From positions 1 to 39,671 of IMG/VR virus record IMGVR_UViG_3300023170_000067: a stretch of 39,671 nucleotides of DNA; one strand, written 5' to 3'. The notes under the pieces were generated by a model, which worked only from the letters and a program-made list of their open reading frames with translations, ran no database searches and was not told where the DNA came from. Source of the DNA: a virus. Made by a program: the position numbers and the translations under genes. Below are positions 1 through 39,671 of the stretch, piece by piece. Position 1 is the stretch's first letter. Each line of letters starts with the position of its first letter.

Positions 1-1667
1 GCAGATCCTGCTGATCCGGCTGATCCAGCACTACCTGCACTGCCTGCTGAACCTGCTGATCCGGCACTTCCAGCACTGCCTGCTGAACCTGCTGATCCGG
101 CACTTCCTGCACTGCCTGCTGAACCTGCTGATCCGGCACTTCCTGCACTACCAGCAGATCCAGCACTACCAGCAGATCCAGCACTACCAGCACTACCTGC
201 TGAACCTGCTGATCCAGCACTACCTGCGCTGCCTGCTGACCCCGCTGATCCGGCACTTCCAGATGAACCAGCACTACCTGAACTTCCTGATGATCCTGCT
301 GAACCTGCACTTCCAGATGACCCTGCACTTGCATCACGACCAGATGAACCTGATGTTCCAGATGAACCAGCACTGCCAGATGAACCTGATGTTCCAGATG
401 AACCAGCACTACCTGAACTTCCTGATGATCCTGTTAAACCAGATGAACCTGCTTTACCTGAACTTCCTGATGATCCTGTTAAACCAGATGAACCTGCTTT
501 ACCTGAACTTCCTGATGATCCTGAGATGCCTGAGCTGCCTGATGTTCCGGCACTACCAGCAGTACCTGATGATCCTGAACTCATCTGTGTTAATATATTT
601 GATCTCAGTATAACAGAACTACTATTTTGTCCAGATTCTATATAAAGACCATCATCAGAATTAACAGTGATATGATCAACTTTTGATACTGTATTTCCTG
701 AAATTTTTGATTCAGTAACTTCTAATGGAGGTGAAGCTTCTCCAAATTCCAATGTTCCATTAGCAGTAACACGTAGAACATCTCCTTCTATACCTAAATT
801 AGATTCATTTACTTCTTTTAATTCTGTTACAGATAGAATTTTTTGTTGATTAGTATCCCTAATCGTAAAATCATTACCCGATGAACTAGCAAATCCTAGA
901 ACTGCATTTTGTGTTCCTGTACCAATTTTTAGAGATTGAGTATCACCTATCGTTAGAGAACGATTAATAACTAAATTTTTGTCATCATCTATCGATAATA
1001 TATCAGGATCAAAAGATAAGATTATTGTGGAAGTATTTTGTGCAGCAAATAAACCGCTTCCGGTTTTGATGGATTTGAATTGAAGAGTTACTGTGCTAGT
1101 GTCTTGTTTTACATCAGATAATATTTGAACTGTATTGGAAGAAACTGATAAGTTTTGTGCATTTGCGGTTTTTGCGTCACCTCCTCCGCCTCCATAATAT
1201 TCACCCCACCCAACAGCAACTTTTTGAGCAGTTTGGGCTGCTTGAGAACCTATATTTTTAACAATAGTTTTTAATGTCTCTATTTCTTGTTTTAAAGGTT
1301 CTACCTTTGCATCATCACCTTTTTCACCTTGTGGACCTTGTGGACCTTCAAGTCCTCTCGGTCCCACAGGACCTTCAGGACCTTGCAAACCTTGTGGACC
1401 CATCTTACCGGGTTCGCCTTTTTCGCCTGTATCACCTTTAGGTCCAGGCAATCCTTCTAAACCTTTTTCCCCTCTCTCACCTTTCGGTCCTTGCTCACCT
1501 TTAATTTCAAGAACTTTTATTTTTTCACCAGTTACAGGATCTAAGATTTCTCTAATTTCTTTTATGAAATCTTGTTTAGCTCTTTTTAATTCTTTTTGAG
1601 TATATGTTAAAGAGGCAGCTAAAACTTCATTAAGTTTTAGCTGTTGGTTTTTATTATCGGTTGACAT
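1..1667 (-). CDS. Collagen-like / Gly-x-x repeat fibre protein, 3' end beyond the window
   Basis: An open frame starts at ATG 1667-1665, only 4 nt after the portal stop, and runs without a stop to the left edge (at least 555 codons). Residues about 1-55 form a charged helical head containing [15 protein letters not shown]. Residues about 55-118 are 21 consecutive collagen triplets ([12 protein letters not shown] ... GPQ GEK GDD). A Gly5 hinge follows near residue 157. Residues about 160-360 are beta-rich and fibre-like. From about residue 363 to the edge, Gly occurs at nearly every third position with Ser, Ala or Thr between (GSS, GSA, GTS, GKA, GLT). One triplet is broken (GRD ASA). The frame was checked codon by codon at several places. 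The protein is probably a trimeric host-contact or decoration fibre. Collagen triplets are known in phage fibres, but the role here is inferred. The Pro-free Ser/Ala repeat could form a polyglycine-II-like bundle rather than a collagen helix. Confidence 0.88.
276..523 (-). repeat. 45-bp in-frame tandem repeat inside the Gly-x-x fibre gene
   Basis: A unit beginning acctgaacttcctgatgatc (plus-strand reading) occurs at 276, 411, 456 and 501. The units at 411 and 456 are identical over all 45 bases, and the one at 501 matches for 23. The copy at 276 is offset by exactly three units, with diverged units between. Each unit encodes 15 residues (five Gly-x-x triplets, including GKA GSS GLT), so gain or loss of a unit keeps the frame. 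It lies within a longer degenerate Gly-x-x tract covering about 1-580. Confidence 0.85.
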
Positions 1668-1671
1668 TTAA

Positions 1672-3348
1672 TTAATCGTCTAAATTTATAGTAGAAAGAA
1701 TATCATTAATAGTGTTTTTCAATTTCTCATCATTTTTACTGGAATCTATTTTTTCTTGTATAATTTTATCAATTTTCTCTTCCGTCAATAATTCTCCATT
1801 GTCATAAATTTTTGAGTCAGTCTGTAGACCCATTTTCATATCATCTTCTCCTGAAAATCTAGGATCTTCTAACTCTTTGGCAATTTCATCATCATTTATT
1901 CTTATTTCATCATCACTCATTTGTAAAATATTTCTTCTAATATAATCATTAGAATAATATTTACCGGCATATTCTGATAAATCTCTGAGTAAGTTTAATC
2001 TATCCTGTAAAACTTCATTTCTTTTTATTTCTGTAAAATGACTATCAGATTCATAATGATAATATATTTCATTTTTTATTTTTTTCCAATCATCACGATT
2101 CATGATGCCCTTCAAACTCAACTGTCTTTCTAACAATTCATCAAATAAAATTGAAAATCTATTTTGTAGTCTATTCACGAATCTTGTGAATTTTACTTCA
2201 TCTCTAGAAATTTCGGTTGCTCGGCCTATAGTATAACTTGCTTCTGATTCCAATCTGGATAAAGGTACTCCGAGTGATTTGTAAAGTTTTTTCTGAAAAT
2301 ATATGACATCTTCAATATCTCCAAGATTTTGTCCTCCTGGTAATGTTGTAACTTCGGTTCCTCTACCTCCTTCCATTCTTGGCATCCAATAGTCTTCAAG
2401 CATAGACATATGTTTTCTATCATCACGAATTTCTCCAGTGTTAGCATCATAAACAAGTTTATTTTTATATCTAGCCATTAAATCACGCATATACTGTTCA
2501 GCACGAACTTTTGGTAAATTACCTACATCTACATAAAAAATTCTTCTTTCAGGAGCTCTAGATATACGATATATTACCAATGAATCTTCTATCATCCTTA
2601 ACATATTCAAAGGTTTAATAGCTTTATGTAAATATGATAAAACTAAAGATTTATTAGAATTTAATAATCCTGAATGAAAATATACAATGGAATCTATTGA
2701 AATTTTTAATCCTGATGCTGCATTAGTAAATGCAGTACCCATAGTTTGACCTTGTGACTGATAGATTCCTTTTTCATTGTATACATAATATTCTTGAATT
2801 TGTTTTTTAGTGGAACCGTCAGGAAGTCTGGTTGTTTGGTTTTCTCTGATTTTTTTTATTTTGCGAGGATCCAAAAGGCGTAATTCATATATACCTTTTT
2901 TTGGATTTTTATCATCGATCATCACATGATAATACATTCTGCCATCAATATACCATCTTCTAAATAAATCATAACCTACATTTTGAAAATCTAATAGTTT
3001 TGTAAGTTCTTTGAATTCAATTCTAATTTTATCTTTTATATTTTCAGATAAATTTAAATTATCTAATTTAATATCAACTATAGGTTTATCTTTAATAGAT
3101 ATGACCGCTTCATTAACAATGTCATCTATGGCATTTTCAACTTCTGCCTGTATAGCCATATCTCTATAACGATTTATTAATTCTGTTTCACTTTTTATGG
3201 CACCTTCAGTATCAATATAAGTTCCATAAACTCCTCCTGAAGCGACAGTAACAGCACCATCATCACGTTCTGCCTCTGCAAAAGTTTGTATTTTTACATC
3301 TTTTTTTTCTTTTTTTCCAATAGTAAAGCCGAAAATGTCAATTGCCAT
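1672..3348 (-). CDS. 20: Portal vertex protein, gp20-like
   Basis: The portal forms the dodecameric ring through which DNA is packaged and ejected, and it nucleates the head and holds the neck. At 558 residues it is slightly longer than T4 gp20 (524). The central signature of T4-type portals is present: ISRAPERRIFYVDVGNLPK, then KNKLVYDANTGEIRDDRKHM, then a W-M-P-R-x-E-G-G-R-G-T-E stretch and LPGGQNLGDIEDV, then KSLGVPLSRLESE. The N-terminus has the usual acidic segment with NRYRDMAIQAEVENAIDDIV. The start at 3348 is preceded by CAGGAA as a Shine-Dalgarno. It follows the tail tube gene after a 90-nt gap that holds an inverted repeat, and it is followed after 4 nt by the collagen-like fibre gene. 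Confidence 0.98.
   Translation of the reverse strand: MAIDIFGFTIGKKEKKDVKIQTFAEAERDDGAVTVASGGVYGTYIDTEGAIKSETELINRYRDMAIQAEVENAIDDIVNEAVISIKDKPIVDIKLDNLNLSENIKDKIRIEFKELTKLLDFQNVGYDLFRRWYIDGRMYYHVMIDDKNPKKGIYELRLLDPRKIKKIRENQTTRLPDGSTKKQIQEYYVYNEKGIYQSQGQTMGTAFTNAASGLKISIDSIVYFHSGLLNSNKSLVLSYLHKAIKPLNMLRMIEDSLVIYRISRAPERRIFYVDVGNLPKVRAEQYMRDLMARYKNKLVYDANTGEIRDDRKHMSMLEDYWMPRMEGGRGTEVTTLPGGQNLGDIEDVIYFQKKLYKSLGVPLSRLESEASYTIGRATEISRDEVKFTRFVNRLQNRFSILFDELLERQLSLKGIMNRDDWKKIKNEIYYHYESDSHFTEIKRNEVLQDRLNLLRDLSEYAGKYYSNDYIRRNILQMSDDEIRINDDEIAKELEDPRFSGEDDMKMGLQTDSKIYDNGELLTEEKIDKIIQEKIDSSKNDEKLKNTINDILSTINLDD
1683..1690 (-). promoter_or_regulatory. Candidate late promoter for the collagen-like fibre gene
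   Basis: The minus strand reads TATAAATT, 7 of 8 matches to the T4 late-promoter octamer TATAAATA. It lies inside the 3' end of the portal gene, 15 nt before the fibre ATG. No clear Shine-Dalgarno sequence precedes that ATG. In DNA this AT-rich a chance match is quite possible. Confidence 0.35.
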
Positions 3349-4048: not shown

Positions 4049-6502
4049 TTAAATTGCATTTACTACTTCATTGAATTGAACACCAGTGCCCACTGCCACA
4101 AAGTTCAAATTAATGAAGTTAATTGATCTTGTTGGTTTTACGAAAATATCTCCTCTAAATTCATTTCTATCTATGACATTTGGAGGATTGTTTGTAGTAT
4201 CACATACAACTTTATAATCAGTTATACCTCTTCTACTTTTTACTTCTCTTAAAAAAGGAGTTACTATGCTAACAAAACTCGCTCTTGTAAAATCATCATT
4301 AAATTCAAAAAGAGAAAATTGTGCGGCATTGGCTATTGCTTTTTCTAGAATGATAAACAATCTTCTAACATTTATTCTATCAAAAGCTGAAGGTCTACTT
4401 AAAAGAGTTTTATCTCCAAAAAGTATAGTACCACCACCAGGTAATGAAATTACAGGATTAATACCTGCAGAATATAATAAGTCACGCTCTGCATTGTTTG
4501 GATTGAATGCTAATTTTGTGACATTTTTAACATTTCCTCTAGTAAAACCAGCCGGAGAAATATAAGGATTAATATTATCAGATTGCGCACATAAACCCGC
4601 AATATCTCCATTCAATGGAACCCATCGATAAACACCTGAAAACCTATCGAATGCATACTTGAAGTTTCCGTCCATTACAGCATAACTAGAACTAGGAAAA
4701 GATTTTCTTCTATTTACGATACTAGTAGTTTCATTACCTTTGGTAGCAATATCTGAATATTGCGGAGAAACAAATGCGACACAATCTTTTCTATGCTCAC
4801 ATATATCATTTATAACATATGTGCAAACATCATCAGGGTGATCTCCACACATTATCAAAGATACGTCAACATCTTCAGGTTTTCTAAAATACGTATAGGC
4901 ATTTACTATATCAACAAAAGCACGTATATCCTGTCCGAAGACAGGATCTTTAAAACCATCAGATCCACCAGAAAGACTATAGGTTGCTATTCCTTTTTTT
5001 CCTGCATTAGAATATGCTCCATTAAAAGGAAGTCTTCTGAGAACAACTGAGGTGTTGACTCCCTGATCATTTTTTTCATAGAGAATGTCACTAAAACCGT
5101 CTAAAACGGTTCCCCACTCCATTGATATATCAAAAAGTTCATTATCATCAAACTCAACGCCAAGATTAAAGCAATCGGTCCGATCACCAATCCCATCATG
5201 GTCTCCCCATCTGAGATATTGAGAATTTTGACTTATAACATCTCTATAATAAAGTGTGGTAAGATCATCATTGGTCGCATTTGCACAAACTGATACATTT
5301 GGATAAGTTTCCAAAACAGATGATGATGATTTTGCACCAGCACCTCTATTATCTTTAGTTCCTGTAAATACCCCGTCCTCATCTACAACTACTACATGAA
5401 TTTCATCATTCAAATTTTTATTTTGAGTTCTGTTATAACCAAATTTAGATGTTAAAGGAGGATTTTCAAAAAGTGATCTAAATTCCCATTCTCTACCAAA
5501 TGCAGTGCCAGCGAGAATTGATCTTATCAAAGGTTCAGTAACTTCTAGCGAGGTTTCAGTTGTTATCGACTTTACTCTTCTCTTATCAGATGTTCCAGAA
5601 GCATCTACAAAAGTTATTAAATCACCTACGGATAATTGTTTTTGAAAAAATGTTCTTGTTCCTGTGATTGTTGTAGAACCTGTTTCTCCTGTTATCGTTC
5701 CAAACATTGAACTAGAAGGAGTTTCAAATGCAGATCTTGCATGTCTAATAATTTTGTTTGATGGATATGAACTTGTTCCTAACAAATTTTCAACAACTGT
5801 TGCATCTGTATCTGAATATTTTACAGCTCTAAATACAGTATTACTGAGAACTGCTGTGACTATTCCTTTGATACCGACAAAAGCATCATCGTCACCTTGA
5901 ATGCCTCCTGATAATTCTATGACATCATTAACTGCTATATTACCATCAAAATATATTACTTCAGTACTTGTAAATTCATCAGAACTGGCTGTTGCCGTAA
6001 AGGTGCCAGGCAATTCAATAGATGTGTTTGCATCTAAAATTACACTTCCATCCGTCTGAACCCGAGTATTTGCTCTATCAGGCATACATATGCTGACTTT
6101 TAGGGAATCTCCATTATAACCTGCATATTTTGCTATAAAAGAAATTCCGTCAACTCCTGAAGAATAATTTTTATCATAATCATCTTGATTTTTAATTAAT
6201 TGCTGCGCACCAGTTGTAGTCGAATTAAATGCTCCACCATTGGTATTTGCAGCTCTAATAACTTTTAAATTATTTGAATAACTTAAAAAATTTGAACAAG
6301 TCATAACAGAACCGTAAGTGTATGCATCTGTTTTTCCAAACAATTGTGTTAATTGATTTGAATCAGTAATGGTTACCACTTCTTCAATGGGTCCCCACAA
6401 AAAATAACCTGCATATCCTCCTACTGATGTAGACGGAATAGGTACTCTAGTGGTTAAATCTATTTCAGCGACCGATACTCCCGGACTTACCATGAATGCC
6501 AT
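4049..6502 (-). CDS. 18: Contractile tail sheath protein, gp18-like
   Basis: This is the sheath subunit that polymerises around the tube and contracts at infection. The N-terminus has SPGVSVAEIDLTTRVPI and GGYAGYFLWGPIEEVVTI, and the C-terminus has YKVVCDTTNNPPNVIDRNEF with FVKPTRSINFI, both hallmarks of T4-type sheaths. Also present is the stretch FKYAFDRFSGVYRWVPLNGD followed by GLCAQSD. At 817 residues it exceeds T4 gp18 (659). The extra length seems to lie in residues about 140-420, a Thr/Ser-rich, beta-rich part likely exposed on the sheath surface. The start at 6502 is fixed by AGGAG with 5-nt spacing, and a candidate late promoter lies 40 nt upstream. Confidence 0.98.
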   Translation of the reverse strand: MAFMVSPGVSVAEIDLTTRVPIPSTSVGGYAGYFLWGPIEEVVTITDSNQLTQLFGKTDAYTYGSVMTCSNFLSYSNNLKVIRAANTNGGAFNSTTTGAQQLIKNQDDYDKNYSSGVDGISFIAKYAGYNGDSLKVSICMPDRANTRVQTDGSVILDANTSIELPGTFTATASSDEFTSTEVIYFDGNIAVNDVIELSGGIQGDDDAFVGIKGIVTAVLSNTVFRAVKYSDTDATVVENLLGTSSYPSNKIIRHARSAFETPSSSMFGTITGETGSTTITGTRTFFQKQLSVGDLITFVDASGTSDKRRVKSITTETSLEVTEPLIRSILAGTAFGREWEFRSLFENPPLTSKFGYNRTQNKNLNDEIHVVVVDEDGVFTGTKDNRGAGAKSSSSVLETYPNVSVCANATNDDLTTLYYRDVISQNSQYLRWGDHDGIGDRTDCFNLGVEFDDNELFDISMEWGTVLDGFSDILYEKNDQGVNTSVVLRRLPFNGAYSNAGKKGIATYSLSGGSDGFKDPVFGQDIRAFVDIVNAYTYFRKPEDVDVSLIMCGDHPDDVCTYVINDICEHRKDCVAFVSPQYSDIATKGNETTSIVNRRKSFPSSSYAVMDGNFKYAFDRFSGVYRWVPLNGDIAGLCAQSDNINPYISPAGFTRGNVKNVTKLAFNPNNAERDLLYSAGINPVISLPGGGTILFGDKTLLSRPSAFDRINVRRLFIILEKAIANAAQFSLFEFNDDFTRASFVSIVTPFLREVKSRRGITDYKVVCDTTNNPPNVIDRNEFRGDIFVKPTRSINFINLNFVAVGTGVQFNEVVNAI

Positions 6503-6542
6503 ACTTTCTCCTAAATTTGTTGTTAATTTTGTTAACTGAATA

Positions 6543-6550
6543 TATTTATT
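6543..6550 (-). promoter_or_regulatory. Candidate late promoter for tail sheath gene
   Basis: The minus strand reads AATAAATA, 7 of 8 to the T4 late octamer, 40 nt before the gp18 ATG. This leaves a leader of about 35 nt containing AGGAG. It lies in the 98-nt gap 6503-6600, which also holds the plus-strand promoter of the HNH gene. Confidence 0.5.
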
Positions 6551-6587
6551 ATTTTGATGTTTTTAAATTGACATTTATTTATCTTAA

Positions 6588-6595
6588 TATAAATA
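6588..6595 (+). promoter_or_regulatory. Late promoter of the HNH gene, perfect TATAAATA
   Basis: An exact TATAAATA lies on the plus strand, with 5 nt between it and ATG 6601. In T4 late promoters transcription begins about 6 nt after this octamer, which would place the start at or within a base of the ATG. No Shine-Dalgarno is seen. The same octamer and spacing occur before the only other plus-strand gene, at 11876. Confidence 0.65.
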
Positions 6596-6600
6596 TTTTA

Positions 6601-10168
<3,568 letters not shown>

Positions 10169-12242: not shown

Positions 12243-14755
12243 TAATTTGTTTCACTGAATGGATTTGTTTCTGAAAAATCTATGATAGAATCAGCTTCTT
12301 TTTCTATAGTATCATTTGTCGCCAGTTCATCATTAATAAAATTTTGTTCATCGGTTTGATCATAAACTCTTACAGAATTTCCATCAGAAGTTTTTATGAA
12401 TTCATTATCATTAAAAGACCCTCCAGAATTGATTATTTTTATAGTAGTGGAATCTTTAAATGAAACTTCTCCTTTTAGTCCAGAATCATTGCCTATAACT
12501 ATATCTCCCTTTAATATATTTGTTTTTGGGGCATCAATAGTTAATGTTGGGGGCGAAGAATATCCATAACCAGAATTGTCTATATTAATTAGTTTTAAAG
12601 ATCCATTAGCATACATTTCGGTTGTAAAAGATGCTTTATAATCTTGAGCTAATCCAGTCGGATTTGAAATTGTCACGGTTGGATTAGTATAATAAAATTT
12701 ACCTGAATTTACAATGTTTATTTTATCTACTATACCTCTACTGCTATTATATGAAGAAGTTGCCGTGGCATTGATATTTTCAAAATCATTATAATTTCCT
12801 GTGGGATCTGAAATTGTTATGGTGGGGACTGAATTATAAAAATTTCCACCATAGTCAATATTAATTGATTGTAAGATTCCATCAGATATAACAGGAGACA
12901 TAATTGCTTTAAAATCATTACTCGTTCCTGTCGGAGAATCTATTGATATCAATGGAACTGATGAATACATTTCTCCATTTTCCGTCAAAGATATAGAAGT
13001 AATGATTCCGTTTTCTACTGTTGCAGTAGCAACTGCCTCCTTTTTTTCAAAACCTTCATAATTAATTTTGTAAGAATCATCGATATCAATTATATAATCT
13101 CTAGAAGTTGTTGGCGTATTTAAAGAATTGAAATTAGTACCATTATAATAGATATCATCTACAATGAATCCTTTTGAACCTGAATTTTTTAAAATGATTC
13201 CGCCATTTCCTGTAAATGAATTATAATTGGTAAACCACTCATCGGTCCATACTCCATTAAAAGGTGCCGTGTAATTTACAACTTCATTCGAATCGATTAT
13301 TATTTTTAGATAAGTTAAATTAAAACCACTTCTACTTTTTATGAACTGTAAGAAATGCCAATTTCCATCAAGTATATCTGTTGCAGGACAAGATGGATAA
13401 TGATATAATTGATTAGCAGAATCATAAGTTGTAAATTTTATCTCTCCATTTGTGTTCAATATTGATATTACACTTTGAATCTGATTCTCATTTTTAAATT
13501 CAAATATTGACACATCTGATATACCTGAATTTGTGTGTAAATTTTGATCATATTTGAACCAAAATGAAAAATTTCCTCCATAATTAATATTTGAACTATA
13601 ATCACTTCTAAATTTTCTTAGTATCTGATCATTATTATTAGATTTTGAAAATTGATAAGAATAATTACCAAATTTACTATCTGTTGTCCAATTTGATGGA
13701 ATCTGAATAGTGTCCTGAATTGTCACATTCGGAACATCTTTATAGTACGTACCAGAATTACCTAGAACAATAGAAGAAATATAATTAGTTCCACTGAAAC
13801 TATTTGAAGTCATTATGGCAGAAGCAGTTGCAGTAATAGGATCAGTAGTAGGCGGATTAACAATTATGGTGGGATTATTGTTATAAAAGCTTCCAGGATG
13901 CGTAACGCTAACACTTGAAACTGAGTTAGATATTAATGATGATGTTGCCGTTGCTGTAATCGGATCCCCTGGACTATCTATTATTATTGTAGGATCCTCC
14001 ACATAATATGCGCCAAAATTTGTGATAATAAAGCCGGTCAAACTTCTATTTGAAACTATTGCTGTTGCTGTTGCCGTTGTAGGTGATAAATCAGGATCGG
14101 TAATCGTAACGGTTGGATTATAAAAATATCCACTACCATAATCTAATATATTAATTTTAGAAATTCTATAGTCTGATATGTCCGCAGAAATTATTGCTGT
14201 ATTGCCAATTAGATATTTATATTCTGAAACATAGGAATATTTTTCTTCAATTTGATCGATATCATCAATTCCAGTGTCAATAGTTTGATCATCATATTGA
14301 AATAACTCACAGGTTAAATCATAGATGGGCAATTTACCAAATTGATAAAAAATTGATTCATGCTCAACAAATTTTATTTCATACAATTTTTTATTCAATG
14401 GAAAAAATATTAAATCCCCTTCTTTAGGACGAACATAATCCAGAATTTCTAAATTTTCCCATCTTCTCCTAGCAATTGAAAATGTAACCTGGTCTCTTAT
14501 TTCCAATCCAAATCTAGAAATAAAATCTCCATCTCCTTCAAACCCATCTACCGATTTTACATACATCTCTACTAGAAAAGAACTATTAAATTCTGATATT
14601 GTATCTTCTAAATATAGTTTATCCAAATTAACCAATGTTCTCGGTAAATAATATACATCAATTCCAAAATTTTTGATAGATTCAATAATTAAATCTTGAT
14701 GTAGATTTTGTTCAGGAATATTTTGAAAATGATTGAAATATGGATTCGTTGGCAT
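12239..14755 (-). CDS. 14: Neck protein gp14-like, with a ~600-residue LamG and repeat insertion
   Basis: gp14 forms, with gp13, the neck that closes the filled head and receives the tail. T4 gp14 has 256 residues; this has 838. The gp14 part is residues about 1-180 (NPYFNHFQNIPEQNLHQDLI, IDVYYLPRTLVNLDKLYLED, FISRFGLEIRDQVTFSIARR, RPKEGDLIFFPL, FYQFGKLPIYDLTCELFQYD). It resumes at about 785-838, ending ADSIIDFSETNPFSE. Between them are four beta repeats (about 203-347; e.g. GSGYFYNPTVTITDP), then a LamG/concanavalin-like domain (about 355-545; GGNFSFWFKYDQN, DGNWHFLQFIKS, ILKNSGSKGFIVDDIYYNG), then four more repeats (about 592-745; e.g. GKFYYTNPTVTISNP). The insertion should project from the neck like whiskers and may bind glycans; that is inference. 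It overlaps the gp13 stop by 1 nt. Confidence 0.95.
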   Translation of the reverse strand: MPTNPYFNHFQNIPEQNLHQDLIIESIKNFGIDVYYLPRTLVNLDKLYLEDTISEFNSSFLVEMYVKSVDGFEGDGDFISRFGLEIRDQVTFSIARRRWENLEILDYVRPKEGDLIFFPLNKKLYEIKFVEHESIFYQFGKLPIYDLTCELFQYDDQTIDTGIDDIDQIEEKYSYVSEYKYLIGNTAIISADISDYRISKINILDYGSGYFYNPTVTITDPDLSPTTATATAIVSNRSLTGFIITNFGAYYVEDPTIIIDSPGDPITATATSSLISNSVSSVSVTHPGSFYNNNPTIIVNPPTTDPITATASAIMTSNSFSGTNYISSIVLGNSGTYYKDVPNVTIQDTIQIPSNWTTDSKFGNYSYQFSKSNNNDQILRKFRSDYSSNINYGGNFSFWFKYDQNLHTNSGISDVSIFEFKNENQIQSVISILNTNGEIKFTTYDSANQLYHYPSCPATDILDGNWHFLQFIKSRSGFNLTYLKIIIDSNEVVNYTAPFNGVWTDEWFTNYNSFTGNGGIILKNSGSKGFIVDDIYYNGTNFNSLNTPTTSRDYIIDIDDSYKINYEGFEKKEAVATATVENGIITSISLTENGEMYSSVPLISIDSPTGTSNDFKAIMSPVISDGILQSINIDYGGNFYNSVPTITISDPTGNYNDFENINATATSSYNSSRGIVDKINIVNSGKFYYTNPTVTISNPTGLAQDYKASFTTEMYANGSLKLINIDNSGYGYSSPPTLTIDAPKTNILKGDIVIGNDSGLKGEVSFKDSTTIKIINSGGSFNDNEFIKTSDGNSVRVYDQTDEQNFINDELATNDTIEKEADSIIDFSETNPFSETNY

Positions 14756-15762
14756 TAACCTGGTCCTACCATAAAATCTATTGGTAATTGATATTTAATT
14801 TGAACTTGTTCTTCTATTTCTCGTAGTTCATTTACGGCATCATCGAATAATTGTCTACCATCGAGCGTTACACCTCCTGGCAATGAAACTCCTTGGTATT
14901 TTATTAGATTTGATCCCCATTGTTTTTTAAATAATGCAGTAACATATCTTTTTAAAAACATATCGTTATAAATTTTACCATATAAAGACGGATCAATAAT
15001 TCTATATGCTTCTACAACAATATATTCGCCAATATCTATATCGGAAACCCAATCCATATCCAAATATAATCTGCTTTGATGTCTATTGAATCTTATAGGT
15101 TTTTTACCAACAAAAATATCATTCAATAATTGTATATGCTGCATTGACATTTGGTAATTTATGATAGAAGTTGCCGTTAAATATGGCAATTCATTTAAAT
15201 GAAATTGATATCTAAAGGAAAACATATCACTTGTAGTTTGTCCCCCTCCAGTATCTTGTATGTCAAAAATACTAATAACTCCCGTTATTGAATCGGTCAA
15301 TGGAATGTATTTGTTATCAACATCTCCAAACACTACTGGATTATCAATTGCATCGACAATCGCAGAACTTCCAGATTTTTTACCTATGATAGTTTCACCA
15401 CTTGAGAAACTAGATGACACATTATTATTTGAAATTCCAGTACTATCTTTGTGATTTTTGAATGTTATGAAACTTGAATTCGAAGTTGTTAATGTGGCAG
15501 AAGCATTCGATGTTTGTCCCTCTATAATTTCACCATTTGAAAAATCACCTATGACAGTATTAACAGAAACCGTTGATCCTGTTATTTGATGACGGTGATA
15601 TATTTTTTCAATAGAATCAAAGTGATATTCCTGAAAGTATTGTAAACCCTCGTCTATTCTGTCCTCAAGTTGATCATCATCAACATTAATTTCTATGACC
15701 GGTTTTCCAAGAGTTCTCAGACAATATTGTTTTAATTCTTCTCTAGATAATGGTTGCGACAT
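14755..15762 (-). CDS. 13: Neck protein, gp13-like head completion
   Basis: gp13 is the head-completion protein under the portal that works with gp14. At 335 residues it is close to T4 gp13 (309). The N-terminus LKQYCLRTLGKPVIEINVDD with QLEDRIDEGLQYF is nearly diagnostic. The C-terminal half, with MDWVSDIDIGEYIVVEAYRI, LKRYVTALFKKQWGSNLIKY and LPGGVTLDGRQLFDDA, is also characteristic. Residues about 65-140 hold two copies of a GE-x-I-x-G-x-x-S-G/N-x-x-A module (GEIIEGQTSNASAT and GETIIGKKSGSSAI) that look like a surface insertion. The message reads GGAAATAAATG before the start, a weak ribosome site. It follows the long fibre gene after 17 nt. Confidence 0.96.
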   Translation of the reverse strand: MSQPLSREELKQYCLRTLGKPVIEINVDDDQLEDRIDEGLQYFQEYHFDSIEKIYHRHQITGSTVSVNTVIGDFSNGEIIEGQTSNASATLTTSNSSFITFKNHKDSTGISNNNVSSSFSSGETIIGKKSGSSAIVDAIDNPVVFGDVDNKYIPLTDSITGVISIFDIQDTGGGQTTSDMFSFRYQFHLNELPYLTATSIINYQMSMQHIQLLNDIFVGKKPIRFNRHQSRLYLDMDWVSDIDIGEYIVVEAYRIIDPSLYGKIYNDMFLKRYVTALFKKQWGSNLIKYQGVSLPGGVTLDGRQLFDDAVNELREIEEQVQIKYQLPIDFMVGPG

Positions 15763-15779
15763 TTATTTCCAATTTTAAT

Positions 15780-18700
15780 TTAAGAAATTGTTGGGTTAAA
15801 TAAATTTAAAATGGTACCGGCACTATTATAAATTGGAATTGCACAATCCACTTGATCTCCGGTCGAAGCTTTTGCTGATAATCTAGCTGATATTTTTACA
15901 TTTTTAGTAAACTCGGACATACCATCAAATTTTGACTTATTTGAAGTTACCCATAAACCAGGTGTTTTTACGTTACCCGTTTCATTTATGACACCATTAG
16001 TTCTTATAGTTATTTTTTGACAAGTAATATCACCTGCATTGGTTATATTTCCATAACTTGAACCATCGTAACCAAGTAAATTCAGTGATGTGCCTCTGAT
16101 TCCAGCACCAGATATAGAACCCGTAGTACCTGCTGAAAGACTGGTACCTGTAATTGCTCCTTGTGCGGTTATATAAGAACTAGATGTTATGTACGAACTT
16201 GCAACTATCGAAGTTGCATTCACTCCTTGAAAAGTAGATGTTCCACCAGTAGCATTAAAATAAGTGCCCTCAACATAACCAGTTGCACTATAATTACCTG
16301 CTACGCTTACCGATTGATAAGTCACAGATGCTGCTCTTATATCTCCAGTTACAAATATATCTCCCGATACCGTAAGATCTTGAGTGACGGAGGCATTTCC
16401 AGATATGTAAACATTACCGTTCTCATTAGTAGGCCACGAAACTTTTAATGTACCTCCTGCTATTGAAGATTCACTTCTACTATCAACTGTTAATATTCCA
16501 GTTGATTTTAAATTCTTCTTTGTCCATAAATCTCCGTTGGTAGTTATAGCACCTTCTGAATATGTAGTTCCATCAATAGTTGTACTACTTTTAACATGTA
16601 AATTACCGTCCTTAACTATTAACCCGTTTTTTACATATAATTTATTTTGGATATAATTATTAGCGGTTGTACTTAATACTTCTAGTTTTCCGTTGACAAC
16701 TTTAACACCTGTAGAATTAGTTGTATTTCCTGTTGTTATAACCAATGAATTTGCAGTTATTTCGCCATCAAAAGTTATATTTCCATTTGCTGTAAGTTTA
16801 TTTCCTTTGAAAGTAGCATCTTTATTAACTGTTAAAGTGTCTTTCAATAATGTTTGTTTTTCAACAAAAAGTCTATCATGTATGGTTAAATCTTTTGTAA
16901 TTGTGGTATTTCCGGTAACATACACATTACCCTCATTGTTGGCTTTAACTACTGTTAATGTACCGCTTCCTAGTTTATTGACATTATCAGTCCCTGTGCC
17001 TATAGTTTCAATGTATTTTTGACTATAAAAATGTAAATCAGTTGTTATTTGTTTACCGGCACTTATACTTCCTGTTACAGTTAAATCATCATCACCAATA
17101 ATATCTCCCTGAGATACTCTGAGTGTTCCATTAATTATATCAACATCACCTCGACCAATTGTTAAAGTTCCTGCAATGTAATTATTAACCAGAGGATTAT
17201 CGACCCATAAATATCCTCTAGGTTCTAATTCCTCATGGCCTGCATAAGTATGACCAACCGCATTTGGATTTTCTCCTCTTACGATTAAATTACGATTTAT
17301 AAACAAATCGTCACTACCAATTATGTCACCTTCAGATACATTTATATTACCTATTACTGTAGCGTCTTGTTCAACTCTTAAATTCCTAACATTTAAATCA
17401 GTATTTTGCATATCGAAATCACCGGAACCCTTGATATTTCCTGATATAGTCAAATCACCAAATATTTCAGTATTACCTTTATTATTCAATCTGCCTACTA
17501 TCCAAGTATTACCGTATTTAACTCCAGTATCCGTATATTCTCCAGTCACAGTTAATGCAACACTTTCCAAAACATCATCTTTTATATTAACCAAAGAAAC
17601 AGCATTTTGAGAATATACCAAACCAGAAATATTTACATTTGCCGTAACATCTGTATTACTTCCATTAAACTTTACATTACCGCCTACAGTTAAATTTCCT
17701 CTGGAAAATGTGTTAGAACTAACACTATCAATATATAAATTTGCTCCAAAAAATCTAGTATTTCCGTTAAAATTAGAAGTTCCTTTTACATGCGTATTTG
17801 ATGTAGATGAGCTTACAATTACATTCTGTCCCGTGTGATATAGTTTACCATCGAATGTTACTGTTTTATTAGTAGAATCAAAACGAACATCTCCATCAAA
17901 AAAAGAATCTGTTTTTACATGTAAATCTTTATCGACCGTAAGATGGTCTTTCATCAAAACATTGCTTTTAAAATAAGCAAGAGGATTTACTGTAAAAGGT
18001 CCAGTGTAATCAAATAATGCATTGCCACTTACTACAAAATCACCATCAAAAGTAACTCCTCCTCTCGCATCTAATGGACCTTGTACGAGTAAAGATGTCT
18101 CAAAAGTTGTAGGATGTCCAAATGTAAATTGACCATCCGCTGGATTAGGCCCAGTATCTGTAAATGTTACACTACCATTTGCCAAAGAAATATCACCATC
18201 AATTGTCATATCACCATTTGCCGTAACATGTTTATCAATATGAACATTATGTTTAATTAAAACATTATTGGCAACTGTCATTTTTCCTGGAAATAATAAA
18301 CTATTGTTATATTGATTGAATTCTATACCCCAATATTCTGGTCTACGATTTTTTGCTTCATTTCCAGGACCTGCATCCCATATAATTTGACCCATTCCTA
18401 AATAACTGTATCCTTGTCTTGTTCCTCCTGGATAGGTGGCATATAATGTTGTACCTGATGTGCTGTCTGTAGCATTTTCTCCGATTCCAAAAATAGCATA
18501 TCCATCAGTTCCATGTGCATCCATCAAAAATATAGTAGTATTTCCATTCTGATGAACTACATTTGAATTAATTCTCATCTCATTTCCATTGAAAATCGAA
18601 TTTGCCTCAACACCTAAAGTTCCTCCCACATGCAATGTATGCCATGCTGTACCATCTCCAATTACTTCAATGACTTCGTTGGGTGCCACTGCGGTTGGTT

Positions 18701-20468
18701 CGTTGGTCTGTCTTTTAATTAGAATGGTTTCACCATCTACCAATGATAAATTAACACCTACTTTGCCTAATGATTCCACATTTAAAACTTTACCATCATT
18801 GTTTTCTACAAGAAGTGTATCTCCTAAATTATCAGCATGAGTTCTTACGTAAAGAGATGATCCTAAAGTACCTGCTCCTTCGCTAACTATACTCACCAAA
18901 TTTGAGGTATGATCTGATATGGATCTAACAAATATAGCGGAACCTGATGTTATATTATCTGAAAAAATATCAATAGTGTTTGCTGTTGTATTCTCAGAGT
19001 CAACAAAAATAGAATAATAATTAGAATCAGAATTTATATACAAACCTCTTCCGGATTTTGTATATAAATCCATCAATCTTGTTCCTGAAGCATCTTCATG
19101 ATTCTGATTTAGAACAAATAACTTTCTTGAATCATTAGTTTGATTATCATCATTTAATTCTACAATAGAACCTGTCCAATTAATGGTTGAAGTTCCATAT
19201 CTCATATTAAGTAAAGAACCGGTGGTCAATGTAGTGGTTCTAATATCGATTATATCAGATGTTGATTGATCACCATCAACAACAACTGCAGATCTATTTC
19301 CTTTATCAGCATTAATATAAAGAGCATAAGTATCGTCTAAATTATTCTGATGGATATGTAATTTTCCTTGAATATTTTCAAACGAACCTTGTGTTGCAAT
19401 TTCTAAACTTCCTCCATTATCAGGATAAATTTTTACTGTTTCAGATTGATTAACACCTAATGTTAATTTGTTTGAATCATTACTATATTTTATGAATCCT
19501 TTTGTAGGTGATACAGCATCACCGAACTTTATATGTGAATTTGAAGTGGTATTTGCTAAAAAAGTCATTCCGACAGAAGTATTACCCTCAACTACCAATT
19601 CATCAGAATTGGCATCAACTGTAATTTTTTGAGAATTGACATCCGCAAAATCTCTTCTAATATGCAATCTACCAGAAGATGATACGGGATATCTCAAAGA
19701 TCCTGGACCTGACCATTCCGGAAACTTACCAATACCAACATTAGCGTCATCATTTGATGCAAATATTGCGCTGGTATTAGTTATTAAATAGTAACCTGTG
19801 TTAGCCGTAAAATCTGATGAATGTATTAGTCCTGAGTAAAATTCAGAAGAATCATATTTTCCCCCTAAAACCGTAGCACCTGTAAAATTATGAGTTCCAC
19901 TTTGCACAGTAATTGTTCCATAATAAGTACTATTGATTTTTAGACTAGTTCCATGAATCGTTCCAGCAGTTCCTGTTCCTCCTGAAGGCACATAAGGGTA
20001 AACATTAAGTATCTGCACTTCACCCAAATTTGTTATCACTGCTTCTGTAAAATCTATTTGCGATTGTCCATCCGCTCTTAAATCTTGACCATTTAATAAT
20101 ATTTCACTATCTCTTATTTGAACACTTTGAATGTAAGAATCAGGATTTGAACCGCTTACGGTAGAACCACCTCGAACTTTTATTTGACTAGCGATTCCTA
20201 GAGAAACAACATTTGCATCTGTAAAATCAACAATAGAAGATTGGCCAGTAAATGTTAATTTAACACCAGTGACGGTATTGGCGGATACAGAATTTGAAGA
20301 GATAACATTTATATATGTCGCACCAGTGAAATCTGTTGTAACAATAGCATCGATAGGATCATCATCCGATGATTCTCTCAAAACTTTCAATGCTTTGTTA
20401 GTTTCGTTTCTCCAGTCTTCAAAAGTATTGATTAATTCTACGTCTATTAAAGTTTCAGATATTGCCAT
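15780..20468 (-). CDS. Long tail-fibre-like protein, 1562 residues
   Basis: This is probably a trimeric fibre contacting the host. The N-terminal ~35 residues (VELINTFEDWRNETNKALKV) resemble the attachment head of fibres in other T4-like marine phages. The rest is Gly/Asn/Thr-rich and repetitive, built from irregular units of about 20-30 residues with patterns such as L-T-V-x-G-N and D-G-D-I, expected of a beta-helical shaft. Residues about 270-360 contain LHIRRDF and IKYSNDSNKLTLGVNQSETV, like the knob-preceding domains of fibres. The C-terminus ends in SAKASTGDQVDCAIPIYNSA and a short hydrophobic tail. I see no intramolecular S74 chaperone triad at the end. The start is preceded by CAGGAT overlapping the upstream stop. 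Host-binding assignment is by composition and position, not homology. Confidence 0.88.
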   Translation of the reverse strand: MAISETLIDVELINTFEDWRNETNKALKVLRESSDDDPIDAIVTTDFTGATYINVISSNSVSANTVTGVKLTFTGQSSIVDFTDANVVSLGIASQIKVRGGSTVSGSNPDSYIQSVQIRDSEILLNGQDLRADGQSQIDFTEAVITNLGEVQILNVYPYVPSGGTGTAGTIHGTSLKINSTYYGTITVQSGTHNFTGATVLGGKYDSSEFYSGLIHSSDFTANTGYYLITNTSAIFASNDDANVGIGKFPEWSGPGSLRYPVSSSGRLHIRRDFADVNSQKITVDANSDELVVEGNTSVGMTFLANTTSNSHIKFGDAVSPTKGFIKYSNDSNKLTLGVNQSETVKIYPDNGGSLEIATQGSFENIQGKLHIHQNNLDDTYALYINADKGNRSAVVVDGDQSTSDIIDIRTTTLTTGSLLNMRYGTSTINWTGSIVELNDDNQTNDSRKLFVLNQNHEDASGTRLMDLYTKSGRGLYINSDSNYYSIFVDSENTTANTIDIFSDNITSGSAIFVRSISDHTSNLVSIVSEGAGTLGSSLYVRTHADNLGDTLLVENNDGKVLNVESLGKVGVNLSLVDGETILIKRQTNEPTAVAPNEVIEVIGDGTAWHTLHVGGTLGVEANSIFNGNEMRINSNVVHQNGNTTIFLMDAHGTDGYAIFGIGENATDSTSGTTLYATYPGGTRQGYSYLGMGQIIWDAGPGNEAKNRRPEYWGIEFNQYNNSLLFPGKMTVANNVLIKHNVHIDKHVTANGDMTIDGDISLANGSVTFTDTGPNPADGQFTFGHPTTFETSLLVQGPLDARGGVTFDGDFVVSGNALFDYTGPFTVNPLAYFKSNVLMKDHLTVDKDLHVKTDSFFDGDVRFDSTNKTVTFDGKLYHTGQNVIVSSSTSNTHVKGTSNFNGNTRFFGANLYIDSVSSNTFSRGNLTVGGNVKFNGSNTDVTANVNISGLVYSQNAVSLVNIKDDVLESVALTVTGEYTDTGVKYGNTWIVGRLNNKGNTEIFGDLTISGNIKGSGDFDMQNTDLNVRNLRVEQDATVIGNINVSEGDIIGSDDLFINRNLIVRGENPNAVGHTYAGHEELEPRGYLWVDNPLVNNYIAGTLTIGRGDVDIINGTLRVSQGDIIGDDDLTVTGSISAGKQITTDLHFYSQKYIETIGTGTDNVNKLGSGTLTVVKANNEGNVYVTGNTTITKDLTIHDRLFVEKQTLLKDTLTVNKDATFKGNKLTANGNITFDGEITANSLVITTGNTTNSTGVKVVNGKLEVLSTTANNYIQNKLYVKNGLIVKDGNLHVKSSTTIDGTTYSEGAITTNGDLWTKKNLKSTGILTVDSRSESSIAGGTLKVSWPTNENGNVYISGNASVTQDLTVSGDIFVTGDIRAASVTYQSVSVAGNYSATGYVEGTYFNATGGTSTFQGVNATSIVASSYITSSSYITAQGAITGTSLSAGTTGSISGAGIRGTSLNLLGYDGSSYGNITNAGDITCQKITIRTNGVINETGNVKTPGLWVTSNKSKFDGMSEFTKNVKISARLSAKASTGDQVDCAIPIYNSAGTILNLFNPTIS

Positions 20469-20471
20469 TTC

Positions 20472-20687
20472 TTAATCCTGAGAAATTTTTTCTAATATTT
20501 TTCGCAACATACATTTTAATTCGAATATTTCACTCTTCAAATTATTTATTTCATTCGAATGATTCATTAGCAAATTATTTTGTTTTACTTTATTTCGATG
20601 ATTATCAAGAGTTTTTTTATCATTTCTTATAATCGCATTAGAATACGTATCTTTAAGATACTTTGGATCATCTGTTTTCACAATCAT
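20472..20687 (-). CDS. Small coiled-coil protein, conserved type near tail genes
   Basis: The protein has 71 residues and overlaps the upstream gene as ATGA. The N-terminus VKTDDPKYLKDTYSNAIIRN followed by DKKTLDNHR matches a pattern I know from short genes beside fibre and baseplate genes in T4-like phages: an Asp-rich start, S-x-A-I/V, then a lysine-rich helix. The last 35 residues (SNEINNLKSEIFELKCMLRK) form a regular heptad coiled coil. Its function is unknown. The position between the DUF4815 protein and the fibre suggests a linker, fibre-attachment or assembly factor. Confidence 0.85.
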   Translation of the reverse strand: MIVKTDDPKYLKDTYSNAIIRNDKKTLDNHRNKVKQNNLLMNHSNEINNLKSEIFELKCMLRKILEKISQD

Positions 20688-23600
20688 GGAACACCTACAC
20701 TATCCAATGCGATTGCTTTCATGTCTAAAATTTTAGGTATCCCTATAAATGTAGTTTGTACATCTCTATTCAAGGTAAATGCTATTTTTATAGCAAATGT
20801 TCTAAAAGTATCAAATAAAGACCCATCAGAATTGGTGTAAGAAATATATTCATCTTTGGTTCTAAATACAAAATTCTTAGTATCATTTTCATTTAATGAA
20901 TATGTTGATTCTGCTGTATCTTGTACCATTGCAATGTAAGGTTTTTCATCAAAAGATTCTGGATCACTATTAGATAAAACTTTATAATATACATGTATAT
21001 TTGATCCTCTAGGCTTGTAAGCATTCAAATATATTCTCAAATCTCTAGCATCAAAATTTTCTTCCAAAGTAACACGTTTACTAATATATCTTGATAATAA
21101 ATTTCCGCCAAATGAATGACTTACATTTGCGGTCAACATCTCTTCTGGTTTTGCTCCTTCGCCATTAACCTTAACAACCATCGAAGTTGTTGAAGCAACA
21201 TTATCAGTCAACACTCCAGGTGAACCACCATCATAAATTGTTATTGTAGGTGTCGTCACATAACCTGAACCAGGATTTACAACATATACACTTTTAATAC
21301 TTGTATTTGAAAAAACTTCTGCAGCCAATGTTGCTCGGTCTGTTCCATAATCTGGCATTGAAACTTCAAATAAATCTGTATTACCATGCGCATCAGTATC
21401 ATATCCCTGACCAGTATTCGTAATTATGATATTATTATTTGTAATCTCTCCATTATTTAATATATTCTCTACAGTTATGAAACCCATTCTAGTAACATCA
21501 AATACTGGAGATAATTTGGTATTTGTTGTTTCAAAATACAAATTTATCATTAAAGAATTAGAATACTGCGCATTATTTACATCAGACATATAAGTGATTT
21601 GTTTTTGCTGTTGCAAATCAACCGTTTTATTAGGAGTAAATCTAATTTCAGGATTTCTTGTTATGGAATCTTTTTCTGTCAAAGAATGTTTAAAATCTAC
21701 GAATGTATCAGTAAATTCTAATTGATCTGTCATTAACTTAAAAGTATCAAAATAAGTATTAGAATATTTTTTATTTGCTGAATACAGTTCATTCTTAAAA
21801 TTTGCCAGACCACTTAATGCTGAAAATTCACACATATATACTTCAAACATTAATCCTGAATTGTTTACACGATTGTATGTACCAGTATTTGTTGGTAAAA
21901 ATAAAGACCCCACAAAATCATTTTTATTAACAGTCAAGGAATCAAACGGATTAGTTCCTGTAATTAAAGCATTTACATCAAAACCATATAAATTGTATGA
22001 ACTACTATTAGAAAGTAAAGTTATCGCATATTCGCCAGGTTCAACATAAACAGGATGATCAAACACAAAATTAGTTTTAGATCCTTTATCCAAACCACTT
22101 GCGTTTGGTGTATTTGAGTTGCCAAGTTCTAAATCGGGATAAATTTGCTGTGAAGTTAAAGCATCTGTTTGTGCAGTTGGTGTTTCAGTATTTGCTGTTA
22201 CTCGTCCTGGACTTAATATTACTTCAGATCCTGGAATTATAACCGATGGACTAGGATTACCATTAACAATTGGCCTTAATTGCAAAGTGACTGGAGTTTT
22301 CGCTCCGACAGTATCATCTTTTGTTCTAAAAAATAAAACCACTCTCTCTAAAAAAACACCTTTTGGATATAAATCTTCACTGATGTAAAATGTTTGTGCC
22401 AATGGATGATAATAGTTTGTCGTACCTGTTTCATTAGATTCTAAGACATCTTTGATTATTATTTCACTTGCGATATCGTTTCTTCTTAAAATTAATGGAC
22501 GTGTAGAAAATATTCCATTTTCATTTTTATTATCGATTAAACCTTTAGAATAAAAAGTTTGTTCGGCAACTGATGTTGTTAATTCTGGTATATTTTCAGA
22601 ATCATCACACACTCTAAATAATAAATCATTAGATTTAAAAATTGATGATGGTACAAAAAATTCTCCAGCTACTACTCCATCTTGATTAACAGACAATTGC
22701 TGATCTTGTAGTGTAAAATTTTGAATGCTTTCGATTATTCCTTCACAAAAATGTTCTTTACCTCTGATTTTTTGGCCTATTCTAAACGAATCTTCATTGG
22801 AAAAATTTGTTACCATTATAGCACATGAATTGATAGTATTCCTATCTGACATGAAAACAACTGTAGCAGTATTTCCTGCCTGGTCTTCGGAACCGGGTTC
22901 ATCTAAAATTTCAATTTCCTCGTAATTATTTGGTGTTGTTCTAAAAACGTTTGCGGTATTTACATTTTTGAGATTAATAATAGTTGCTTGTTTTATTTGA
23001 TTAGTCACTCTAGTATCACCAAAAAATGCAAAAACATTTTTATTTGGTTTTAATCCTTTGGCTAAGAATGTTATTTTTTGTTCCCTTACTCCAAATACAA
23101 CACTCATATTCAAAACTTTGTTGCCAAAAGTTTTTATTATTTGTTCTGGAATATTTCCTGTTGTGAGTCCAGATAAAGTTTTTTGTTGATTTGTCGTTGT
23201 GGTAGAACGATCACTGATAGATGGACTTCCTAAATCAACAATACCGTTTTTAGTATCATTATTGATTTGTTTGCCTGACCAAAAATCTTCCCAATCTTTC
23301 CACTGAGAACCATGACCATTTTTATATTCTATTTTTCTCCAGTTATCAAATTGTCCCTCAATATTAACTTTAATATTAGCTTTATTAACCGTGTCATACC
23401 ATATATCACTAGGAGGATCTAGAAACATAGATCCAATATAATTCTGTAAACCCGGACTTATCTGAATAGTCTTTTGAAACGATGCGCCATTCCAATTTCC
23501 TGTTGTTAATTGACTAACAATAGGTGTTTTTATAAACGGTAATGTCAAAATTCCAGAATTATTTACAAGAGTTGTTGAATCAGTGTCAATATTAAATTTA

Positions 23601-36174: not shown

Positions 36175-36507
36175 TCAAATTACTGTTGTACTAGCACTAA
36201 ATGACAATTGTTGCACATTTAGAGGAGGTATTACAGGAACAGGAGTAGGTGCTCCTAATGCTGGTATTGTAACAGTTAATGTTCCTGTCGCACTACCGGT
36301 TGATAAATTAACATTTCCGGGATAGAATAATTCTACCTGTAATTTAGAAGCAAATACTCCAATTGCAGTTGCAATATCATTTGCTAATTCTTCTTTTGCT
36401 GTCGGACTAGGGTTCAATTCTGCTTTGTCTAATGCAAATTTTATTGATGATGCTAAAGTCGCTGTGTCTATCAATTCAAATCTCCTATTTTGTTGTGAAT
36501 TTTGCAT
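36175..36507 (-). CDS. Small protein of unknown function upstream of gp25
   Basis: The protein has 110 residues. I do not recognise it. The N-terminal ~60 residues look helical (ASSIKFALDKAELNPSPTAK, then EELANDIATAIGVFASKLQV). The C-terminal part is Gly/Thr/Pro-rich (GSATGTLTVTIPALGAPTPV, PVIPPLNVQQL) and looks extended or beta. There is no signal peptide and no cysteine. Its start lies 23 nt inside the 3' end of the upstream Ig-like gene, so translation is probably coupled. Its position in the wedge cluster suggests a baseplate or hub part, but nothing in the sequence shows which. Confidence 0.82.
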   Translation of the reverse strand: MQNSQQNRRFELIDTATLASSIKFALDKAELNPSPTAKEELANDIATAIGVFASKLQVELFYPGNVNLSTGSATGTLTVTIPALGAPTPVPVIPPLNVQQLSFSASTTVI

Positions 36508-39500: not shown

Positions 39501-39671
39501 TCATCTTTTCTGGTCACACGATAAGTATCAGTTTTAACATCACCGGATACTACATCATAAATTTTTATCAAATCTTCATCATTTAAATTATGTTTATTGT
39601 ATGTTGTTATTTCAGTATTCGTGCCATCAGAAGAATATGCTACATTCATTCGATAACAACTTAAATCAAGA
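36485..39671 (-). CDS. Large Ig-like repeat structural protein, 5' end beyond the window
   Basis: The frame is open from the right edge; the codons before the first ATG (39649) read Leu-Asp-Leu-Ser-Cys-Tyr-Arg with no stop and no ribosome site, so the true start lies outside the window. At least 1061 residues are present. Numbering from that Met, residues about 1-60 and 225-275 hold H-N/T-L-x-x-x-D modules (KHNLNDEDLIKIYDV, KHTLSIGDKIYIDG). SbsA-type Ig-like units follow at about 310-425, 455-600, 785-930 and 930-1054, each with an I-x-x-x-F-x-x-S/T-M/I-N/D core (INFSQSMNTSTITV, LIMFDESIDPTTITV, IHFAFDQTMNVDSLSF, QIIFNETVSLSSFTI) and closing Y-Y-L-K/R-V. The unit between about 610 and 780 is different, Gly/Tyr-rich and unknown. 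It lies upstream of gp25, suggesting a baseplate or tail-tip protein that binds surfaces. Confidence 0.85.
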   Translation of the reverse strand, partial: LDLSCYRMNVAYSSDGTNTEITTYNKHNLNDEDLIKIYDVVSGDVKTDTYRVTRKDDFKFTIPYNISSKNAGRLNYHPILSKNQDIVNVKTIDGQKKVTLKKATTFQNHIPFRDDINLNSSMKTLLYANPNGGASISPDNDVMLGRIIKKDEDVINYVCVNSDNQIITDNFVNNSILEISNGQEKLLCHIKANTYPNHNVHPFNTSAPEITQIYPSEGQSTTSKIKISEISRNDSTASVTTNLKHTLSIGDKIYIDGKIDTIFTGPFLVSEILDEYSFRYLITKTINENSPVLSTQRTELLYFLTGIEETSENLNDVDNYQEKVGIIQINFSQSMNTSTITVSNSSHLICSNGVIIPFSENLTKLSSTIQLSKSNDNFDLLSLVDFDSVTSNTGNSQFILTPSTIEKYTNYYLKVKSDVSDLGGTTMTYNFQTTEPITTGFRPVESDTTTNEPSEIPIYELDTTPPTVKKIYFSDSNSSSVLYQKILDSRTISQISDPTTYEDVELDLNGESILIMFDESIDPTTITVNTESTRPSGTIQLSCDDFNTVVQMESPVVLKTIEESDTFSFKPLTKLSSNSNYKLKITKKVGDKALNKNYLEEQKISDIKSLVLQTIPDDVENYYVSGETIRGTKRLFVRSALNLINQNFQIDGLTSGKVFYGFTTGGRGKVYQYGLDEQGDLSYIDYTPIESGKYIIDIAPGEICGFEENEQTYRFSVDYTAIGKAPEGTVIEFIENESRLIYREKYTDVTFARANDRIYGYTSKGIGKTSDPSEPTLPGFNTKTEPNLVKFYATNISDQLVTNFSSNQENISPTTDIHFAFDQTMNVDSLSFNTNKNNQNIQSTDNLILSYDSNFSNCIPFSPYITSSNNDTFFKLSLLMKNDDLQLSQNSFIYFGTRGTAKTKGGTLPYTTNSSQTSETEILIHNYTFKVSTTDDFKILKLIIDNVNLLEYDSNQDNSITDISLIPLIQIIFNETVSLSSFTIGQNNSFELSTDPNFQSNFITGTVTIYDIHKNRIVFIPDSELTTLTDYYLRINNNDTVENPYGVILDKSYTYAKFTTK

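Follow-up and report, generated by a model that had tools for sequence, protein, structure and literature searches.

A collagen-like Gly-x-x fibre gene behind the portal of an uncultured T4-like phage lineage, at the head of a candidate host-recognition island

In an uncultured T4-like phage, the gene directly behind the gp20 portal encodes a fibre that combines collagen triplets with long Gly-x-x repeats. On balance, we lean towards reading its product as a very long, probably homotrimeric virion adsorption fibre, and the gene as the first of a host-recognition island set between gp20 and gp21. Under this interpretation, a conserved N-terminal segment would attach the fibre to the particle, and the fixed-length collagen with the helix that follows it would act as a trimer clamp, as suggested by their constancy and by phage collagens such as EPclA. 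The Gly-(Ser/Ala)-x rods would then serve as spacers of evolvable length, bearing folded beads and a terminal, exchangeable receptor-binding tip. The rod, bead and tip architecture itself was seen in relatives, and from it we infer the function, including receptor binding by the tip and beads. Fibre length and tip would change through repeat gain and loss and through domain exchange, in keeping with the differences seen between relatives.

The fibre gene at the edge of the window

The stretch of DNA analysed here (the window) is a whole IMG/VR record, a linear fragment of 39,671 bp. Along its minus strand come gp25, gp6 and more baseplate genes, followed by a VrlC relative and a fibre, then gp13 to gp20 and finally the Gly-x-x fibre gene, which starts 4 nt past the gp20 stop codon (Table 1). 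The fibre frame runs from 1667 to 3 on the minus strand and is free of stops in the window, as stated in the preliminary description. It is left open by the end of the IMG/VR record, a contig-edge effect and no structural peculiarity.

Table 1. Features of the window, with residue numbers referring to the Gly-x-x fibre behind the portal
Feature	Position	Strand	Basis or remark
Collagen-like / Gly-x-x fibre gene, N-terminal 555 aa	3..1667	minus	cut by the contig edge; in L003 the frame reaches at least 1,210 aa
N-terminal anchor, residues 1-56, mostly helical-looking	1500..1667	minus	conserved across the lineage: alignment A1, 67 loci
Collagen stretch, residues 57-119, 21 perfect Gly-X-Y triplets	1311..1499	minus	Pfam, triplet count
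Predicted post-collagen helix, residues ~118-146	1230..1316	minus	low-confidence AlphaFold2; conserved in alignment A2
Predicted beta-rich middle, residues ~150-364	576..1220	minus	conserved in near relatives; low-confidence AlphaFold2
Gly-x-x stretch 1, residues 365-445, 27 triplets, Ser/Thr/Ala, no Pro	333..575	minus	
In-phase Gly-to-Ala break ASA, residues 446-448	324..332	minus	within the recurrent GRDASAG motif
Gly-x-x stretch 2, residues 449-555	3..323	minus	runs off the contig edge
gp20 portal, directly upstream of the Gly-x-x fibre gene	1672..3348	minus	Portal_T4, E 2.2e-176; phrog_213
ORF with an HNH-like look, between gp17 and gp18	6496..7026	plus	opposite-strand; similar ORF at the same gp17/gp18 position in relative G022 (84100-84522)
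500-aa phrog_1462 protein, upstream of gp17	8666..10168		432-aa ORF at this place in G009 and G022
Classic VrlC-gp14 host-recognition interval: VrlC-like gene, 71-aa ORF, 1562-aa fibre, gp13	14755..27550	minus	
gp13	14755..15762	minus	
Fibre at the classic site, 1562 aa	15780..20468	minus	only 574-584 aa in G022 and G009
VrlC-like gene	20684..27550	minus	
1054-aa protein with Ig-like-looking repeats	36485..39649		1329-aa relative in G009; PHROG gave no match at E 1

Two further elements of the preliminary description were confirmed within these 555 residues. The 21 perfect collagen triplets are uninterrupted and include 10 Pro residues, matching the Pfam Collagen profile (PF01391) at E 3.8e-37 with 126.3 bits against a cut-off of 27.2. 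The part of about 190 residues with Gly at every third position and almost no Pro spans residues 365-555 with the single ASA break; no Pro occurs C-terminal of residue 314, and residues 449-553 comprise 35 triplets, of which 31 are GSA. The beta-rich middle of the same description is best treated as a prediction, being indicated by an AlphaFold2 model of low confidence (11 sequences; mean pLDDT 44.5), and it matched no known family, PHROG included.

The N-terminal anchor matched no Pfam or PHROG family and was absent from 50,697 isolate phage records, and a search of isolate phages with the anchor plus the post-collagen helix as query returned zero matches. PHROG tail fiber matches fell mostly over the collagen and Gly-x-x parts and were largely driven by composition, the anchor and the middle matching nothing. 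Profile searches against PDB sequences with the middle, a bead and a tip gave no credible match. As structural analogues of the Gly-x-x part, a PDB axial fibril match was rejected for being rich in Pro, and silk-like GAGAGS packing was rejected on the period of 3.

The codons of the repeat speak directly to its status as coding sequence. Neighbouring (GSA)n triplets show 62 synonymous and 5 non-synonymous codon differences, against simulated means of 13.5 and 59.3 for the same number of random changes, and the other two forward frames of the region contain stops. The Gly-x-x stretch is under strong selection for its amino acids, and on this synonymous pattern we reject an origin of the repeat by simple slippage. 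An independent contig, L003, encodes a fibre whose first 365 residues are identical to those of the window. Of the 1,667 bases compared, 11 differ, and nine of these fall at third codon positions.

An uncultured lineage with a large gp20-gp21 island

Scanning for relatives of the window's gp20 yielded 80 loci, comprising 61 readable loci with portal identity of at least 71%, 3 that ended too early and 16 distant ones. A homologous fibre lay directly behind the portal in all 61 readable relatives, starting 5-48 nt downstream of it, and in none of the 16 loci with portal identity of 56% or less; in the distant-portal loci examined, short ORFs come first, at the position of the prohead core genes. 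Searches anchored on the N-terminal segment (alignment A1) found gp20 immediately upstream in 67 of 67 loci, with portals down to 61.7% identity. By portal, the best isolate match is the cyanophage S-CREM1 of Synechococcus, at 54.5%. Given its presence throughout these relatives and the absence of its anchor from isolates, the fibre gene therefore marks an uncultured, aquatic T4-like lineage, the only one among the loci examined with a fibre at the portal site. One lineage member is a 161-kb contig (PAAV01000055.1; G022, loci L124-L130) filed under a Chloroflexi MAG (NAT137); this filing probably reflects a binning error, or else gives a weak hint of the host.

The preliminary description had called a fibre out of place behind the portal, and the comparison with isolates bears this out. 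T4 has prohead core genes and gp21 after its portal, and in S-CREM1 the portal is followed by three prehead core genes, of which the second served as gp21 counterpart in the query, and then by the major capsid gene. With a joined gp20 and gp21 query, the two were adjacent in 58 of 60 records evenly sampled from 2,507 isolate phage records. In the three long lineage members, the gap between gp20 and gp21 extends to 32.6 kb (G006), 24.1 kb (G011) and 26.4 kb (G022), compared with 0.85 and 2.2 kb in two records from outside the lineage.

The known host recognition cluster of T4-like marine phages is a large, variable island holding fibres, seemingly unrelated genes and radical-SAM cassettes, with mean sizes for the VrlC-gp14 cluster of 44.6 kb in pelagimyophages and 34.2 kb in cyanomyophages (PMC7029224). 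The lineage island resembles it in being large and variable and in carrying fibres together with accessory metabolic genes. It differs in place: the known cluster always lies between VrlC and gp14, whereas the large island of the lineage lies between gp20 and gp21, and the VrlC-gp14 interval measures 5.9 kb in the window and is smaller in G006, G009 and G022. Because the classic site is small and the gp20-gp21 site is loaded, the simplest reading of the gene orders is that the lineage would carry its recognition island at a new place.

In the three long relatives, the island contains fibres, a Cys-repeat protein, radical-SAM enzymes and lipid- or polyketide-like genes (loci L083/L084 for G006, L085/L086 for G011 and L128/L129 for G022). 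The Cys-repeat protein follows the fibres in all three, and the L019 and L064 contigs reach its start. It is about 180-200 aa long, terminates in Cys-rich repeats (FCPCNCN / CDYCTCDC), is matched to phrog_26958 and located near radical-SAM genes (L085:6348-6956; L128:18878-19408), and it is a possible modified-peptide precursor. Pfam identified three radical-SAM proteins, an Asp/Asn hydroxylase-like protein and a 2OG-Fe(II) oxygenase in both G011 and G022. To these, G011 adds an acyl carrier protein (ACP), a KAS III/chalcone-synthase-like protein, a phosphopantetheinyl transferase, a weak SDR match, fatty acid desaturases, a TauD-like oxygenase and a Rieske-type oxygenase, in place of which G022 has an AMP-binding enzyme. 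At the G006 locus L083, a row of about seven adjacent ORFs behind the ACP/KAS-like genes shows His motifs like those of desaturases (HRYxxH, NNHH). They seem to stem from gene expansion on the spot, and their Pfam support as desaturase-like comes from the G011 counterparts only.

Known from relatives, the island thus described looks like a phage-borne biosynthetic cluster within the capsid module. Our literature search for phage-encoded biosynthetic clusters with radical-SAM enzymes and ACP found none combining all of these. Hydroxylation of the fibre collagen by the island oxygenases was considered, with gene neighbourhood as the sole evidence for it.

A fixed clamp with variable rods, beads and tips

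Every lineage member is metagenomic, and repeats may be collapsed or chimeric in such assemblies. It could accordingly be asked whether the open fibre frame is an assembly or repeat artefact, as repeats break assemblies and 46 of the 61 readable relatives' contigs stop inside the fibre gene, just as the window does. Such an artefact is scarcely credible against the codon pattern of selection in (GSA)n and against closed fibre genes of 879 to 4717 aa on 15 contigs, plus one closed gene on a contig from a separate MAG. For the relatives, these closed genes on independent contigs refute the artefact reading.

The collagen stretch of the fibre is nearly constant in length, with 20-21 triplets in every member of the 61-locus set but L013. 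In L013/L121, the anchor is followed by 81 Gly-x-x triplets with few Pro in place of collagen, which may represent a natural exchange of the one repeat for the other. The predicted helix behind the collagen is a possible coiled-coil trimerizer. The EPcl proteins of E. coli O157 prophages offer a likeness, as modular fibres with collagen beside a coiled coil and with end domains, and EPclA, which has coiled-coil and C-terminal trimerization modules, is trimeric (PMC3368898); we take a trimer as the default for the lineage fibre because these prophage collagens are trimers. EPcl proteins differ in having other N- and C-terminal domains, in being far shorter and in lacking long Pro-free Gly-x-x rods.

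Behind this segment, the fibres vary in length, composition and ending. Near-identical strains differ in the triplet counts of single runs (51 versus 50, 45 versus 44, 58 versus 47, and 47 versus 35), and uninterrupted runs reach about 108 triplets in relatives. The rods are broken at stereotyped motifs, GRDASAG and GLTYASSG, and carry beads, most of which belong to one of two recurrent domains: the first ends in FARTGD, the other has an INHNLGxRP signature. At least four C-terminus types occur on one N-terminus type: a PKD-containing end with a large phiCbK-gp73-like tip (G001, L061); an end in '...LVSRKKAITYGLIF'; an end in '...KHDLIGIAL..FVEVKI', common to fibre 2 of other members; and a short end (L044). 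One tip class matches phage proteins, annotated tail fibres among them. The G011 fibre gene bears a C-terminus that belongs to fibre 2 in G006, and it looks like a fusion.

A complete form of the gene, with its end and C-terminal tip, is present in G001, a relative with an 88% identical portal and a closed fibre gene of 4717 aa. This protein has 29 Gly runs with 747 Gly triplets, which alone would come to about 650 nm at 0.29 nm per residue, an arithmetic value that assumes extended-rod geometry. Pfam found only Collagen and PKD_4 in it, the latter with two matches. Downstream lie an 850-aa collagen-containing protein, proteins of 104 and 121 aa and the first part of another Gly-x-x fibre.

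Two other structures for the Gly-x-x part were weighed against parallel homotrimeric rods. It might be a flexible, disordered linker, leaving only the collagen, beads and tip folded. Ser-rich Gly-repeat sequences are expected to be weak triple-helix formers, and the stretch has almost no Pro or hydrophobic residues, both of which favour a linker. We nevertheless judge this improbable, as the strict period-3 Gly is kept by selection over hundreds of triplets in all relatives, and the stereotyped breaks (GRDASAG, GLTYASSG) are unlike those of a free linker.

Alternatively, the stretch could consist of packed polyglycine-II helices that themselves form a receptor-binding lattice, in the manner of gp38. 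A Pro-free sequence of small residues with Gly in every third place fits polyglycine-II geometry, and the gp38 proteins of phages S16 and PP01 have polyglycine-II sandwiches, packed as a lattice with protruding loops at the fibre tip (PMC12892980). The likeness to gp38 of S16, PP01 and T2 lies in a Gly-rich, period-3 sequence in a T4-like phage. That protein is a compact tip of short packed helices, whereas the lineage fibre presents a shaft with long rods between beads; the short Gly-rich motifs alternating with hypervariable loops that characterize gp38-type tip proteins were not found in it. A lattice of this kind appears quite improbable here, and we rank polyglycine-II below parallel homotrimeric rods in likelihood, since the runs extend to about 108 triplets, since they are placed between clamp, helix and beads in the shaft and not at the tip, and since no gp38-type family match was found for the fibre.

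Tip homology and the site of attachment

The G001 tip, taken as the last 555 aa, is 51% identical to the L061 tip and matches phrog_8578 (E 1.4e-32); AlphaFold2 models of the tip (2 sequences) had a mean pLDDT of 32. In tblastn searches, it matched 51 isolate phages, all of Alphaproteobacteria: 38 named for Caulobacter, 8 for Brevundimonas, 2 Bertelyvirus (host Caulobacter), 2 for Agrobacterium and 1 for Sinorhizobium. Because tip homologues were found only in alphaproteobacterial phages, this distribution suggests an alphaproteobacterial host for the lineage. To judge from its nearest relative, the window's own fibre may bear a gp73-like tip as well.

In phage phiCbK, the counterpart of the G001/L061 tip is gp73 (hhalign probability 97.7%). 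Its gene lies between the capsid genes gp68/gp69 and gp76, an order shared by Brevundimonas phage Bajun, and gp76 is a candidate head filament mediating flagellum attachment (PMC3556154). We found no established role for gp73, and some of its homologues carry a tail-protein annotation.

Attachment of the lineage fibre to the tail or baseplate seems most likely, since in position as in gene content the island stands in for a recognition cluster in which tail fibres are encoded. Against a tail fibre stand the position of the gene among head genes and the head-side location of one tip homologue in phiCbK, and on these grounds a head or neck site is the strongest rival. The fibre would then be a filament catching an appendage or surface at a distance before the tail binds, much as the head filament of phiCbK catches the flagellum of Caulobacter. 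Its gene follows the portal by 4 nt within the head module, the gp73 homology and the alphaproteobacterial hosts of all 51 isolates with the tip point in the same direction, phiCbK gp76 is likewise very large and Gly-rich, and the long capsid fibres of Agrobacterium phage 7-7-1 bind flagella (PMC12796354). We regard such a filament as fairly unlikely all the same: a part for gp73 in the filament is not established, other lineage members have quite different tips, and gene place does not determine the attachment site.

The lineage and phiCbK share a very large, Gly-rich protein encoded on the head side (4717 aa in G001), and the G001/L061 tip is homologous to gp73. The lineage differs in its T4-like portal, its contractile-tail gene set and its collagen and (GSA)n rods, and in the G001 protein Pfam found no concanavalin A-like lectin domain of the kind that gp76 has at its centre.

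A more far-reaching proposal, which we think improbable and put forward by way of speculation, holds that the lineage moved its recognition machinery to the head module. A head or neck filament, some 0.6 micrometre long if all 747 G001 triplets form extended rods, would capture alphaproteobacterial hosts from afar in the manner of phiCbK, and a conserved tailoring pathway in the island would modify a virion or secreted product. That pathway would comprise the Cys-repeat protein, three radical-SAM enzymes and 2-oxoglutarate oxygenases and, in some members, the ACP/ketosynthase/desaturase set.

The adsorption fibre that we favour is of a kind that metagenomic collections probably under-record, since its repeats break assemblies. 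T4-type phages almost always keep the portal, prohead core and protease together, and the lineage breaks this rule with an island of 24-33 kb. A fixed trimer clamp kept separate from rods that evolve in length would allow length to be tested as an adsorption trait from sequence data.
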